A program made the position numbers and the translations under genes. Below are positions 11,894 through 19,357 of a stretch of DNA of 20,293 nucleotides, one piece after another (within the stretch, counting starts at the first letter, position 1; every line of letters begins with the position of its first letter). Below the pieces are notes generated by a model, which saw only the letters and a program-made list of their open reading frames with translations, searched no databases and had not been told where the DNA came from. Source of the DNA: a virus; IMG/VR virus record IMGVR_UViG_3300025009_000412, positions 1-20,293 of that record; one strand, 5' to 3'.

Positions 11894-12187
11894 TCATTCT
11901 TCCAGCAGTCTAACCAGCTCAGCGACGAACTCCTGCCCCGCGTGCGCCCGTATCGTCGCGGCGGCTGAGGCGGGATCGCTGAGGTTGATTGCACGGCGCG
12001 GACGGGGCTTATGCAGATGATAGCCCAGCTTGCGCGCCACATGACGCGGCGGGCGGTAGCCTGGATCGTTGGCGATATGCCACAGATAATAGCTATTCAC
12101 GTTGTAGCGACGCGCCAGTTCGGGATAGCCAAATTGACTGAGCGAGTCTATGATGGCGTTTCTGTCTGTGAACAAGCTACCGGACAT
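11894..12187 (-). CDS. small helix-turn-helix-like protein
   Basis: 97 residues. Residues about 20-53 (YPELARRYNVNSYYLWHIAN, then DPGYRPPRHVARKLG) follow the pattern of a Cro/MarR-like helix-turn-helix seen in many small phage and plasmid regulators, with helix 2 at ELARRYNV and the recognition helix at NSYYLWHIAN. A basic linker HKPRPRR follows and the C-terminal helix is predicted to be amphipathic (FVAELVRLLEE). AGGAG lies 12 nt before the start, a rather long gap. A perfect palindrome (12219-12230) lies 32 nt upstream and could be its own operator. Function as a DNA-binding regulator is inferred. Confidence 0.6.
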   Translation of the reverse strand: MSGSLFTDRNAIIDSLSQFGYPELARRYNVNSYYLWHIANDPGYRPPRHVARKLGYHLHKPRPRRAINLSDPASAAATIRAHAGQEFVAELVRLLEE

Positions 12188-15035: not shown

Positions 15036-16046
15036 CTACTTGGGCATCTCGCCCTTATTGGCGTACTCGGCAGCCTTCTTGCTGTCCGCGCCGATATCGC
15101 GCCAACCGCGATATGCCCGCATCCAGGCTACCGCGCCGTCATTCGTGGTTGGTACTGGCTTTGCTTTCGCTAGTGCGTTCTTGGCGGCGAACTCATTCTC
15201 GGACAATCCCGCCGCTATCACTGCGTCGTAGATACTCACTGGTTCAGCTTCCGGTTCGGTTACTGGCTCAACCTCAACCTCGGCGGCATCCTCAAAGTGT
15301 CCGTCAAGCACATCATCAAAAGCAGGGACGGGAATATCTTGCTCACCCGTGATACGTGGATCAACACCGATAAACGGCGGTGCATCTTCGTCTTGCATCT
15401 CGATTGACATGAGGCCGTAGCGTGAAAGCAGGATACGTAGTACAGTCTTTTTGCCCATGTCATCAAAGTTGGTAAACCACGCGCTCTCTTTCCTGCCACC
15501 ATTCATCCCGTACTGGTAGGACTTCGAGTAGCGCAGGGCATGGCGCTCTGCATCTTCTTTGCTCATGTAGATAAACTTCTCGAAGCCGTTCTTCAGTTTG
15601 AAGTATGCTACATACCCGGTGATGGTGTCGCCTGTGCGCTTGCCGTTCAGCTTGATCCCGCCTGTAAGCCGGTCCACTATGATTTCTTCGCCCTCGTAAA
15701 TCTCGGAGGCGTTGATCGCGTGGTACTGCCCGGTTCGTAGGGCTAACTGGATCATCCCCTTGTATCCGAGAATGAATGTGGCGGTGGTTTTGAACGGTAC
15801 GATATAAGCGAAGCCCAGCTCTTTGGCAATGGGCAGGCGCAGGATCGCTGCTTTGGCAGCGGCGCTCAACACACTGGCAGGCTGGCACTCCAACAGTTTT
15901 TGTTCTGCGTTCACCAGGCTGAGCAGGCCGGACAAAAACTCCGGGGCGCGCTTATCCAGCAGTTGCCGAAAGCGTTCCTGAACATCATCATTCTTCAGGA
16001 TGTCACGGAAGCGGGCATAAGGTGTGATTGCGGTTTGATCTGACAT
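15036..16046 (-). CDS. recT: RecT-family single-strand annealing recombinase
   Basis: 336 residues with AGGAGG before the ATG. RecT landmarks are clear: NAEQKLLECQPASVLSAAAK (46-65), GFAYIVPFK..ATFILGYKGM (78-98), QLALRTGQY (100-108), GYVAYFKLKNGFEKFIYMSK (144-163) and SAWFTNFDDMGKKTVLRILL (188-207). The core ends near residue 220. RecT binds single-stranded DNA and anneals it to complementary strands during phage recombination and replication. Beyond the core comes an acidic Glu/Val/Pro linker (about 225-270) and an extra C-terminal module (SIYDAVIAAGLSENEF... to the end), making it longer than the usual ~270 residues. No RecE-like or other exonuclease is encoded nearby. Confidence 0.9.
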   Translation of the reverse strand: MSDQTAITPYARFRDILKNDDVQERFRQLLDKRAPEFLSGLLSLVNAEQKLLECQPASVLSAAAKAAILRLPIAKELGFAYIVPFKTTATFILGYKGMIQLALRTGQYHAINASEIYEGEEIIVDRLTGGIKLNGKRTGDTITGYVAYFKLKNGFEKFIYMSKEDAERHALRYSKSYQYGMNGGRKESAWFTNFDDMGKKTVLRILLSRYGLMSIEMQDEDAPPFIGVDPRITGEQDIPVPAFDDVLDGHFEDAAEVEVEPVTEPEAEPVSIYDAVIAAGLSENEFAAKNALAKAKPVPTTNDGAVAWMRAYRGWRDIGADSKKAAEYANKGEMPK

Positions 16047-17463: not shown

Positions 17464-17492
17464 ATTATAGCACAGATATTCTATTCTATCCA
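17464..17492 (-). promoter_or_regulatory. promoter of the membrane-protein gene
   Basis: On the minus strand TGGATA (17492-17487), a 17-nt spacer and a perfect TATAAT (17469-17464) preceded by TGC form an extended -10 promoter. The -35 overlaps the end of the repressor gene. The start of transcription would fall about 14 nt before the ATG at 17443. Confidence 0.7.
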
Positions 17493-17863
17493 GGGTCAAC
17501 GACTGGATCGGTCTCCTTGTCCTTGCCCAGCAGAATGTCCATAACGCGTTGTTTCTGGTTGTCATCGGCGGTAAACAGTAGCTTGACGATTGTAAGTATG
17601 GTCTTATCTTCTGGCATGTGCGGTGGTATGCCACATATCTCGTACACATGCGGCCCCAGCTTGTTGGCTATCTTGTAAATGTTCCTGCCAGACGGTAGCC
17701 GCTGGCCGTTCATCCATTGGCTAAGGCTGGTGTTGCTTACGCCCAGCCACTTGGCAAAGCTGGCTGCGCTGGTTATTCTCTTTTTCCCCGTTGCGTACTT
17801 TAGAAATTCATCGTTGAGCCACGCCTCCATCTCTCGTTCACGTGCTCTAATGTCGTCCTCCAT
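17486..17863 (-). CDS. HTH phage repressor (CI-like, no peptidase domain)
   Basis: 125 residues from the ATG at 17863, which has GGAGG 6 nt upstream. After a helical, charged N-terminus (MEDDIRAREREMEAWLNDEF) comes a typical XRE helix-turn-helix at about residues 32-70: SAASFAKWLGVSNTSLSQWM, NGQRLPSGRNIYKIANKLG. The C-terminal ~50 residues are helical (ILTIVKLLFTADDNQKQRVM). There is no S24/LexA peptidase domain, so RecA-driven self-cleavage is not expected, and induction must work another way. It is divergent from the Cro-like gene across a 119-bp control region, the classic immunity layout. Confidence 0.8.
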   Translation of the reverse strand: MEDDIRAREREMEAWLNDEFLKYATGKKRITSAASFAKWLGVSNTSLSQWMNGQRLPSGRNIYKIANKLGPHVYEICGIPPHMPEDKTILTIVKLLFTADDNQKQRVMDILLGKDKETDPVVDPG

Positions 17864-17898
17864 CGCAATCCTCCTACGGAATGTCATATCTAGCATAC

Positions 17899-17913
17899 AC
17901 GATTATAAATCGT
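17899..17913. promoter_or_regulatory. inverted repeat ACGATT-N3-AATCGT over the repressor -10
   Basis: Perfect 6-bp arms with a 3-bp centre. Read on the minus strand the centre completes TATAAT, a perfect -10 for the repressor gene whose start is 36 nt away; the -35 position has no good match. A regulator bound here would cover that promoter, which suggests autoregulation or repression by the Cro-like protein. Confidence 0.6.
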
Positions 17914-17927
17914 ACCACCTTGCATTT

Positions 17928-17967
17928 TATATAGGTACTTGACATTCGTTTGCCTTTGTGATAATAT
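17928..17967 (+). promoter_or_regulatory. rightward early promoter with shared 17-bp block
   Basis: TATATAGGTACTTGACA (17928-17944) contains a consensus -35. The -10 is GATAAT (17960-17965, 15-nt spacing, with an upstream TG) or TAATAT (17962-17967, 17-nt spacing). Transcription would begin near 17972, giving the Cro-like mRNA only about 10 nt of leader. The block is identical to that at the leftward promoter. Confidence 0.7.
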
Positions 17968-17968
17968 C

Positions 17969-17985
17969 ATACCGGAGGCGAAATG
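17969..17985 (+). repeat. ATACCGGAGGCGAAATG repeat at the Cro-gene start
   Basis: Contains the ribosome site and ATG of the Cro-like gene and matches 16 of 17 bases of the minus-strand copy at 17124-17140. A third, shorter copy is at 17043-17056. Confidence 0.55.
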
Positions 17986-18264
17986 TTATCACCTATGCGG
18001 AACACACAACTGCAAGAAATTTTATCCAACTACTTGGAGCAGCACGATCTTACCTATCGAGAGTTTGCAGAGCTGCTCAGTAAGACCTACCCGACAACCC
18101 AGGGCGCTGTTGGTCATTGGATGACGGACAAGTGGAAGCCGTCTGTGCTGCGCCTGCGGGCTTATTTAGAGAGCGACGACGAAAGCGTGAGGGGGTTGGC
18201 GAAGGAGCTAATTAATGTGCGCTTACTTGAGAATACCGCAGTCGAGGATATTGTCAATAGTTGA
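17983..18264 (+). CDS. Cro-like HTH regulator
   Basis: 93 residues, ATG 4 nt after GGAGG; an internal ATG (17995) has no suitable ribosome site. Residues about 11-45 (LQEILSNYLEQHDLTYREFA then ELLSKTYPTTQGAVGHWM) form an XRE-type helix-turn-helix, with the recognition helix near TTQGAVGHWM, followed by KWKPSVLRLRAYLES. The remainder is helical. As the first gene of the rightward unit, divergent from the repressor, it most likely represses the repressor gene and tunes the early promoters. Its start region coincides with the ATACCGGAGGCGAAATG repeat, so operator and ribosome site may overlap. Confidence 0.75.
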   Translation: MLSPMRNTQLQEILSNYLEQHDLTYREFAELLSKTYPTTQGAVGHWMTDKWKPSVLRLRAYLESDDESVRGLAKELINVRLLENTAVEDIVNS

Positions 18265-18287
18265 TACCGTTGCCAATGCGGTACAAA
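18261..18287 (+). promoter_or_regulatory. weak promoter and dyad upstream of the tRNA-like element
   Basis: TTGATA (18261-18266) and TACAAA (18282-18287) are 15 nt apart and would start RNA near 18295-18301. A dyad with perfect 5-bp arms, TACCGTTGCCAATGCGGTA (18265-18283), covers the spacer and shares its TACCG half-site with the repeats of the control region. Both are suggestive rather than strong. Confidence 0.35.
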
Positions 18288-18300
18288 CTACACGAAACAC

Positions 18301-18376
18301 GGGGCTGACAGGCGTTCGCGTAATTGTAGCGCAATCGCTACGATTATAGACCCGCGTTCGATTCGCGGCAGCTCCA
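18301..18376 (+). ncRNA. tRNA-like element with tmRNA/alanine-type acceptor and T-arm
   Basis: GGGGCTG (18301-18307) pairs with CAGCTCC (18369-18375) over 7 bp, with G3:U70 and discriminator A at 18376. These are alanine identity elements and equal the ends of bacterial tmRNA. The T-arm is perfect: CCGCG / TTCGATT / CGCGG (18352-18368). No D-stem or 7-nt anticodon loop can be formed. Instead, 18322-18331 pairs with 18336-18345 (10 bp, one G-U) around CAAT, and a GGCGTTCGCG stretch sits at the D-arm position. CCA is not encoded. The whole resembles the tRNA-like domain of tmRNA with its long P2 stem capped and the messenger part absent. An attachment-site copy of a host ssrA 3' end is the main alternative. 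Confidence 0.55.
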
Positions 18377-18382
18377 TCGTAA

Positions 18383-18396
18383 CCGCCATCCGGCGG
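18383..18396 (+). other. GC hairpin after the tRNA-like element
   Basis: CCGCC (18383-18387) and GGCGG (18392-18396) enclose ATCC. It lies 6 nt after the tRNA-like element. No U-run follows, so it is not a standard terminator; it may mark the 3' end for trimming or simply be chance. Confidence 0.35.
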
Positions 18397-18418
18397 CGCA
18401 GGCAAGGGAGGCGAGGCG

Positions 18419-18547
18419 ATGAACAAGATCCCCAACAGGAATGACTGGATTGACGAGCTGCGCGTCATCGCGCTGTTCACCCTGCTAATCATAATCATGG
18501 GCGCGGTGTTCTACGTGGGCGTCGTCACTAACGCATGGGGAGGGTGA
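18419..18547 (+). CDS. 42-residue single-pass membrane protein
   Basis: The ATG at 18419 follows GGGAGGCGAGGCG. A polar N-terminus (MNKIPNRNDWIDELRV) is followed by one hydrophobic helix, IALFTLLIIIMGAVFYVGVV, and a short tail TNAWGG. The gene sits between the tRNA-like element and the replication initiator, 9 nt before the latter. No family is recognised. A good ribosome site and clean spacing make it likely to be real. Confidence 0.6.
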   Translation: MNKIPNRNDWIDELRVIALFTLLIIIMGAVFYVGVVTNAWGG

Positions 18548-18556
18548 GGATAAAGG

Positions 18557-19357
18557 ATGCCTACGTTTCGTAAATTGCACACCAAGATAATTGATAGCTT
18601 CGACTTCGCTGAAATGCCGGACGATTTTACCCGCGTGTTCTGGCTTCTGCTGATAGTCGCCGCCGATAGCGAGGGGCGCATGATTGACAACTACGCATGG
18701 CTGCGATCCCGAATGTATCCGTTACGATCAGACGTGAAAGACGAACAGATAGAGGCTACGCTTGCATGGCTGGTGGATAGGGGAATGATTGTGCGCTACA
18801 CCGTCGAAGGGCGCGGGTACTTCTATGTTGTGAAGTTCAAGAGTTACCAAACCGGAACGGAACGGGAAGCCAAGAGTGTGTTACCAGCTGTTCAAGAGTT
18901 AGTCATGAGTAACTCGCGAGTAAGTCAAGAGCAGGTAAAACCTGCTGCATCTGCATCTGTATATGAGTCTGTATCTGTATCTGAGCCTGAAATTCTAAAC
19001 ACCGAAGGGAAAGTAATTAATTTCCAGGCTGAAATGTTGGGGGTTTTATCAGACGTTACCAAACTTGATTACAAGATAAAGCGCAATGCAGGACGATTAG
19101 CGAAACCATCAAAAGAATTACTTGACGCTGGTTATCTTCCCGAACAAGTCAAAACCTTTTATAGCTTGGGTAATTGGTGGTACGCAAACGATTGGCGCGG
19201 CCAGAAAGGGCAGCCGCCTACTCCCGAACAAATACTAGAAACCATAGCGCAGGCCGCCAGTGGCGTTAGGGCTAATGGCAGTGGTAAGCGCGCCGAACCT
19301 GCTGGCTACGCTGCTATCCGTGAATACATGGAGGAGCAAAAGAATGGCATCGAATGA
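18557..19357 (+). CDS. replication initiator / replisome organizer with winged-helix N-terminus
   Basis: 266 residues, AAAGG a few bases before the ATG. Residues about 1-95 form the winged helix common to phage replication organisers: FRKLHTKIIDSFDFAEMPDD, FTRVFWLLLIVAADSEGRM, then EQIEATLAWLVDRGMIVRYT and GYFYVVKFKSYQTG. A linker (about 110-150, Ser/Val/Glu-rich) separates it from a C-terminal helical part (DVTKLDYKIKRNAGRLAKPS, EQVKTFYSLGNWWYANDWRG) that probably contacts the helicase loader. In lambda-type phages the origin lies inside this gene, and the linker region here (18912-18989) is full of palindromes and hexamer repeats. The next gene overlaps its end by 14 nt. Confidence 0.7.
   Translation: MPTFRKLHTKIIDSFDFAEMPDDFTRVFWLLLIVAADSEGRMIDNYAWLRSRMYPLRSDVKDEQIEATLAWLVDRGMIVRYTVEGRGYFYVVKFKSYQTGTEREAKSVLPAVQELVMSNSRVSQEQVKPAASASVYESVSVSEPEILNTEGKVINFQAEMLGVLSDVTKLDYKIKRNAGRLAKPSKELLDAGYLPEQVKTFYSLGNWWYANDWRGQKGQPPTPEQILETIAQAASGVRANGSGKRAEPAGYAAIREYMEEQKNGIE
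18912..18989 (+). repeat. palindromes and tandem hexamers inside the initiator gene, candidate origin
   Basis: In order: the palindrome ACTCGCGAGT (18912-18921), the perfect inverted repeat AGCAGGT-AAA-ACCTGCT (18930-18946), and seven tandem hexamers of the type (C/T/A)(A/G)(T/C)CTG, one of them TATATG (18948-18989). An A/T-richer stretch follows to about 19022. Two GAGTAA copies flank the first palindrome. The cluster falls in the linker coding part, as the iterons of lambda O do. Confidence 0.5.

Follow-up and report, generated by a model that had tools for sequence, protein, structure and literature searches.

Trans-translation is near-universal among bacteria and essential in many. The window, the whole stretch of DNA analysed here, comes from a viral contig of 20,293 bases in total, and an earlier note on its sequence likened the segment at positions 18301–18376 to a tmRNA that lacks the messenger domain. 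Is this segment such an RNA, and what would a virus do with it? Direct reading of the sequence places a tmRNA-like, tRNA-like RNA on the plus strand at this position. It is very probably a tmRNA mimic composed of the tRNA-like domain (TLD) only, referred to below as a mini-tmRNA. Its parts and its surroundings are listed in Table 1.

Table 1. Coordinates of the mini-tmRNA, its parts and the neighbouring features in the window
Feature	Position	Strand	Basis
Compact tmRNA-like RNA, tRNA-like domain only (mini-tmRNA)	18301..18376	+	RF00023, R1, fold
Acceptor 5′ strand GGGGCTG; G3 of G3·U70 at 18303	18301..18307	+	sequence, fold
D-loop-like segment GGCGTTCGC	18311..18319	+	alignment to Rfam tmRNA and R1
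Capped P2-like hairpin, 12 bp, loop CAAT	18320..18347	+	fold
GAC linker	18349..18351	+	alignment to Rfam tmRNA
T-arm CCGCG-TTCGATT-CGCGG	18352..18368	+	sequence, fold
Acceptor 3′ strand CAGCTCC (18369–18375; U70 at 18373) and discriminator A73 (18376)	18369..18376	+	sequence
Repressor-like HTH_3 protein	17486..17896	-	Pfam PF01381; PHROG transcription regulation
Small Cro-like regulator, weak	17983..18264	+	phrog_3, E 0.005
Replication initiation protein	18557..19357	+	phrog_16167, E 1.8e-13
Likely rightward early promoter TTGACA-17-TAATAT, extended -10	17939..17967	+	consensus scan only, 10/12

The two acceptor strands form 7 base pairs, G3·U70 included. The T-arm has a 5-bp stem and a UUCGAUU loop, and the discriminator A73 is unpaired in the fold. 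Sequence and fold agree with the earlier note on all of these parts. The internal hairpin is continuous and capped by the CAAT loop, as described in that note, but folding gives 12 pairs, two of them G·U, instead of 10. This plain hairpin replaces the P2/message/pseudoknot domain and, together with the D-loop, fills an interval of only 44 nucleotides between the acceptor and the T-arm. CCA is absent from the encoded 3′ end. The minimum energy of the RNA is −34.5 kcal/mol (z = −3.7), a stability that all 200 shuffled sequences failed to reach.

The Rfam tmRNA model, RF00023, matches the window RNA with 36.4 bits (E 1.7e-11), spanning model positions 1–374 with about 290 positions in the middle deleted. 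The match falls short of the 47-bit gathering score. In the comparison of tRNA and tmRNA covariance models, a check proposed in the earlier note, RF00023 is the top model of the clan, ahead of any tRNA model. Bacterial tmRNA and the window RNA have in common the G3·U70 acceptor, the D-loop of the GG..UUCGAC type, the GAC linker, the T-arm, and A73. Unlike bacterial tmRNA, the window RNA contains no message-like domain with a tag reading frame and no pseudoknots in its sequence and fold, and a tetraloop caps P2. The T-arm and both alanine identity elements, G3·U70 and A73, are also features of tRNA-Ala. A degenerate tRNA-Ala is nevertheless ruled out. The fold contains neither a D-arm nor an anticodon arm with its loop, ARAGORN calls no gene over the RNA, and the Rfam tRNA model does not claim it and ranks behind the tmRNA model. 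The combination of TCGAY and GAC is also absent from the tRNA-type matches described below.

Four sequence patterns were used to find relatives in viral contigs. The first, a compact GGGGCTGA...CAGCTCCA element, matched 42 contigs, and the second, in which acceptor positions 5–6 and the 3′ acceptor strand were unconstrained, matched 50. The third, with a TTCAA T-loop, gave 14 matches, all with a fully paired acceptor and T-stem. The fourth, with the acceptor fixed at G1G2 only (positions 3–6 and the whole 3′ strand free), gave at least 120. The pooled scans comprise at least 174 loci and at least 124 distinct sequences, or at least 102 after clustering at 85%. Element length ranges from 59 to 91 nt, with a median of 79, among the matches listed. 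Loci L018, L022, L027, L037, L088, and L100 were removed, being variously classed as tRNA-Ala, tRNA, truncated tmRNA, or weak tandem elements. When scored with the Rfam tmRNA model, 37 of 44 viral relatives are above the 47-bit cut-off, with matches of 65–90 nt.

An alignment of 28 sequences from other viruses, with the window left out, was used to build a covariance model, R1. The four helices (acceptor, P2, apical, and T) are paired in 98.8% of the cells of this alignment. Compensatory changes, which the earlier note had suggested looking for in related phages, are abundant: 135 cells contain double-sided changes, compared with 33 in shuffles. The covariation score is 0.657 versus 0.147 in shuffles, and no shuffled or slid version comes near. 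Pairs of the acceptor, P2, and T-stem covary strongly across viruses. P2 averages 6.4 bp in the native sequences and 4.2 bp once 3′ halves are swapped between them (null s.d. 0.13). In a search of 395 kb, R1 recovers the window RNA with 47.8 bits (E 5e-10); it also recovers nearly all remaining members. The better fit to the tmRNA than to the tRNA model, and the strong compensatory change in a family spread across viruses, support the description of the RNA as a tmRNA without a messenger domain.

The commonest layout of the family is GG-x-UUCGAC, a P2 of 7–8 bp, AAAR, a short hairpin such as CCGCACGCGG, A, P2′, GGAC, and the T-arm. The hairpins at this site are variable among relatives. The window RNA is a divergent member, marked by its D-loop GGCGTTCGC, the plain 12-bp hairpin, and the unencoded CCA. 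Its hairpin is uninterrupted, with neither the purine-rich internal loop nor an apical hairpin of the CCGCACGCGG type. Such a plain capped hairpin is the minority form, found also in L065 and L104, for example. A pattern for the D-loop variant of the window RNA gave no matches, and a search with the replication protein found no close relatives of this virus among the records covered. A RecT-protein search returned 34 loci, none of which has the RNA.

Among 84,980 species genomes of bacteria and archaea, a strict pattern found one genuine case, L094, which is an Acidimicrobiales MAG contig bearing phage-type genes. R1 found nothing beyond L094 itself in 396 genomes of the same phylum. Because cellular genomes yielded just this case, the mini-tmRNA is essentially a viral gene. 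The Rfam tmRNA model detected no full-length tmRNA in 44 viral records, only short elements or weaker matches. The MAG of L094 also has a 390-nt tmRNA of its own, located on a different contig, and through this MAG the Acidimicrobiales are a possible host group.

Several other tRNA-like elements were encountered. At L022 (5055–5303), L027, and L037 (6873–7118), three tRNA-like elements lie in tandem. They have acceptors of the alanine type but weak model scores (23–27 bits in L037; no ARAGORN call in L022), and possibly represent a different tRNA-like family. Weaker matches of about 39 bits occur in Microbacterium phage Skylord (L237, 538–627) and Stenotrophomonas phage QDWS359 (L246, 2448–2529). 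Both contain G3·U70 and the T-arm and adjoin tRNA genes. They could be divergent mini-tmRNAs or pieces of permuted ones.

The sequence could also have arisen as an attP site, in which the 3′ end of the host ssrA gene is copied for integration. The ssrA gene frequently serves as attB, and Mycobacterium phages Squirty and Milly have ssrA-type sites beside their integrase genes. These genuine attP sites comprise the T-arm and the 3′ acceptor strand only, and score just 16.9 and 13.9 bits with R1. The relatives of the window RNA are not confined to the 3′ ~40 nt, the pattern that the earlier note gave as a refutation of its reading. They retain a covarying 5′ strand and hairpin, the two parts that the note held to be unexplained by attP. 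A tyrosine integrase is present in just 6 of 49 records, lies 5–36 kb from the element in the three records where both positions are available, and is absent from the 20,293-base contig of the window. The window RNA is not a 3′ part alone with an adjacent integrase. Phage DS6A, which encodes a TLD-only RNA, itself uses tRNA-Lys for integration (PMC10865867). An attP origin is rejected for the family and is extremely improbable for the window RNA.

The window RNA is also not a piece of a permuted two-piece tmRNA, because a single short segment holds both acceptor strands and the closed hairpin. Phages SM1, Marzo, and Rb1 have permuted tmRNAs, and these differ in appearance from the mini-tmRNA. 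ARAGORN "tmRNA" calls overlap five mini elements (L002, L046, L052, L079, and L082). The calls at L002, L046, and L079, the three inspected of the five, are taken as having spurious 5′ ends.

The third acceptor pair of tmRNA is a signal for AlaRS (PMC8363625). Acceptor pairs 4–6 vary freely across viruses, with compensation. All 95 of the genuine elements among the matches listed nevertheless have G·U at 3:70 and A at position 73, although the acceptor was left free in the pattern. Three extra matches outside this set appear to be betaproteobacterial tRNA-Gly loci, out of register.

Residues A15, U17, G19, and A334 of E. coli tmRNA presumably correspond to the D-loop UUCG and the A of GGAC. 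In the window RNA, T18316 and G18318 are taken to be the equivalents of U17 and G19, and A18350 that of A334. The RNA has the tmRNA-type D-loop (UUCG) and GAC before the T-stem. The U17, G19, and A334 equivalents are kept, and those of A15 and A20 are changed. In tmRNA, A15, U17, and A334 form the pocket for Trp122 of SmpB, and G19 is needed for binding SmpB (PMC8363625). A pattern with only the acceptor and T-loop fixed gave 65 distinct viral matches, 29 of which are called tRNA by ARAGORN (28 as tRNA-Ala) and 36 of which are non-tRNA. TCGAY and GAC, which contain the Trp122-pocket residues and G19 and to which the pattern is blind, occur together in 19 of the 36 non-tRNA matches and in none of the 29 tRNA-type matches. 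The residues known as SmpB contacts in tmRNA thus recur where no pattern chose them.

About 30 loci among the matches listed lie no more than 1.5 kb from tRNA genes. These genes are always on the strand of the element and some abut it, which argues for a processed RNA. In L149, for instance, the element occupies 12023–12100 and a tRNA-Tyr begins at 12101; L164 is another abutting case. The element is found in the isolated Streptomyces phages LuckySocke, GiJojo, Alone3, BRock, and pSt2308. Its region is a tRNA array in LuckySocke, Alone3, BRock, and pSt2308, the four of these phages whose regions were examined. It also lies inside a tRNA array in Stenotrophomonas phage Jojan60 and upstream of the capsid gene in Pontimonas phage phiPsal1. 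In Jojan60 (L245, ON045087.1), the tRNA genes are annotated on the strand opposite to Rfam's placement. A 27-kb Pseudonocardia plasmid (L236, NZ_CP053567.1), perhaps a phage-plasmid or satellite, contains an integrase gene and an unannotated mini-tmRNA at about 15549–15627 that scores 82.6 bits. The element has no RNA annotation in the regions examined of the isolated phages and this plasmid. Mini-tmRNAs escape ARAGORN, and in the isolated phages found they are unannotated or lie beneath hypothetical ORFs.

In at least 15 loci, representing at least 10 distinct elements, the interval between a terminase-like and a portal-like gene holds the element (L044, L049, L054, L055, L059, L060, L063, L064, L070, L073, L075, L077, L080, L086, and L087). 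This is an unexpected site for a tRNA-like gene. The position between TerL and portal genes would suit processing punctuation, in which RNase P and RNase Z excise the tRNA-like element and separate phage mRNAs, as would the positions before the phiPsal1 capsid gene and, in the window, before the replication genes. This role would not need an invariant G3·U70, a tmRNA-type D-loop, or GAC, and many copies are in tRNA arrays, where spacers would do. Punctuation is an improbable explanation.

The tRNA arrays that often adjoin the element, with RNA ligase genes nearby in LuckySocke and BRock, could instead point to a bait for host toxins directed at tRNA or tmRNA, with the acceptor end or alanyl-tRNA as the target. 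This explanation is slightly less probable again than punctuation, as no linked toxin gene was found and the conserved SmpB-contact residues would be left unexplained. The absence of an anticodon loop excludes anticodon nucleases and leaves the decoy against these enzymes, suggested in the earlier note, a weak proposal. The arrays of LuckySocke (L231) and BRock (L233) have RNA ligase and thioredoxin genes in or beside them, suggesting a tRNA-repair neighbourhood.

In the window, the gene order from left to right is the HTH_3 repressor on the minus strand, the cro-like gene on the plus strand, the RNA, and the replication-initiation and helicase-loader-like genes from 18557 onward. The predicted promoter is upstream of both the cro-like gene and the RNA. 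Given this gene order and the promoter match before the cro-like gene, the RNA looks like part of an early rightward operon. The sole long ORF across the RNA (18223–18498, minus strand) is antisense to the neighbouring genes and probably spurious. The sequence ACGATTATA occurs at 17899–17907, in the intergenic region on the repressor side, and at 18340–18348, on the 3′ side of the hairpin stem in the RNA. With one mismatch or fewer, it has 11 matches in the window versus 4.1 expected, a marginal excess. It is possibly an operator motif common to the hairpin and the repressor promoter.

A tmRNA without a coding sequence (CDS) is already known in phage DS6A and two plastids (PMC11915505). The "TLD only" ssrA of DS6A is attributed to Mao et al. 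2009 in PMC4131195 and PMC11915505. Like the DS6A RNA, described as little beyond the TLD, the window RNA is a lone tRNA-like domain without a message, encoded in a phage genome where phage genes adjoin it. DS6A is one case in one phage and is compared here by description only, whereas the present family has at least 124 distinct forms and a defined capped-P2 architecture. The CDS-less tmRNA of Mallomonadaceae plastids (~65 bp, PMC11915505) is likewise a tmRNA cut down to its tRNA-like domain, but is a non-viral organelle gene derived from plastid tmRNA. Other phage tmRNAs include full-length forms, as in mycobacteriophages Bxz1 and Wildcat, Streptomyces BE phages, and Cellulophaga phages, and permuted forms, as in Pseudomonas phages SM1 and Melnitz. 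The full-length forms are viral ssrA genes with the same TLD, often located in tRNA arrays. They have a message domain and a tag, whereas the window RNA has neither and fits the two strands of its acceptor into about 76 nt. The literature searched, mostly outside subscription journals, contained no description of CDS-less tmRNAs as a wider viral family, and the breadth of TLD-only tmRNA among phages appears to be new.

Among the roles suggested in the earlier note, competition with host ribosome rescue is, on this analysis, the best supported, with DS6A as its precedent. The favoured reading, held somewhat above even, is that the mini-tmRNA would be an alanine-chargeable competitor of host tmRNA that binds SmpB and EF-Tu. 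The element would be the gene for a stand-alone tRNA-like domain. Its transcript would be excised like a tRNA, with RNase P acting at the 5′ end and, for the window RNA, CCA being added. Host AlaRS would charge it with alanine through G3·U70 and A73, and EF-Tu and host SmpB would bind it via the T-arm, acceptor, D-loop, and GAC linker. The charged RNA would arrive at stalled ribosomes instead of host tmRNA and bring no message. It would tie up SmpB and rescue events, such that nascent chains would escape tagging for proteolysis. This reading draws on the tmRNA model as the best match, the R1 match, the covariation, the invariant G3·U70 and A73, the SmpB-contact residues, the tRNA arrays, and DS6A. 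Against it counts that the window RNA is divergent and without a close relative found.

The TLD-only RNA of DS6A reportedly inhibits endogenous tmRNA in E. coli (PMC11915505), possibly through titration of SmpB (PMC4131195). An unchargeable version is stated to inhibit as well (PMC4131195). Pure titration of SmpB would thus have no need of an invariant G3·U70. Its invariance suggests that charging is important to the function of the RNA, and the conservation of chargeability could reflect an active role instead of competition alone. A serious rival is thus tagless rescue, in which the charged mini-tmRNA and host SmpB would take the nascent chain at stalled ribosomes and release it untagged. 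This would help the phage to keep ribosomes and truncated proteins, not block host tmRNA. The invariance of G3·U70 and A73 implies that charging is important, and the CDS-less or tag-less tmRNAs of mitochondria and plastids are thought to be helpful there (PMC11915505). A search of 49 viral records gave no SmpB gene, and the RNA would accordingly use the SmpB of the host. The inhibition of endogenous tmRNA reported for the DS6A form (PMC11915505) argues against tagless rescue, and a message-free release route has no demonstrated example. Tagless rescue is rather unlikely, although clearly ahead of punctuation and bait.

Competition stays the preferred reading for the window RNA. For the family, a broader proposal has about even chances. 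It holds that common virus-specific small RNAs, alanylated and bound by SmpB, would subvert ribosome rescue, either by blocking it or by tagless replacement, in phages of several bacterial groups, and would move as independent cargo among tRNA arrays and early and late operons. A single TLD-only phage RNA seemed a curiosity. More than 100 distinct viral forms are now available, some of them in isolated phages that infect a laboratory strain of Streptomyces, which makes the targeting of ribosome rescue by phage RNA mimics directly testable. The family suggests that many phages make a decoy of, or a substitute for, the rescue RNA of their host.
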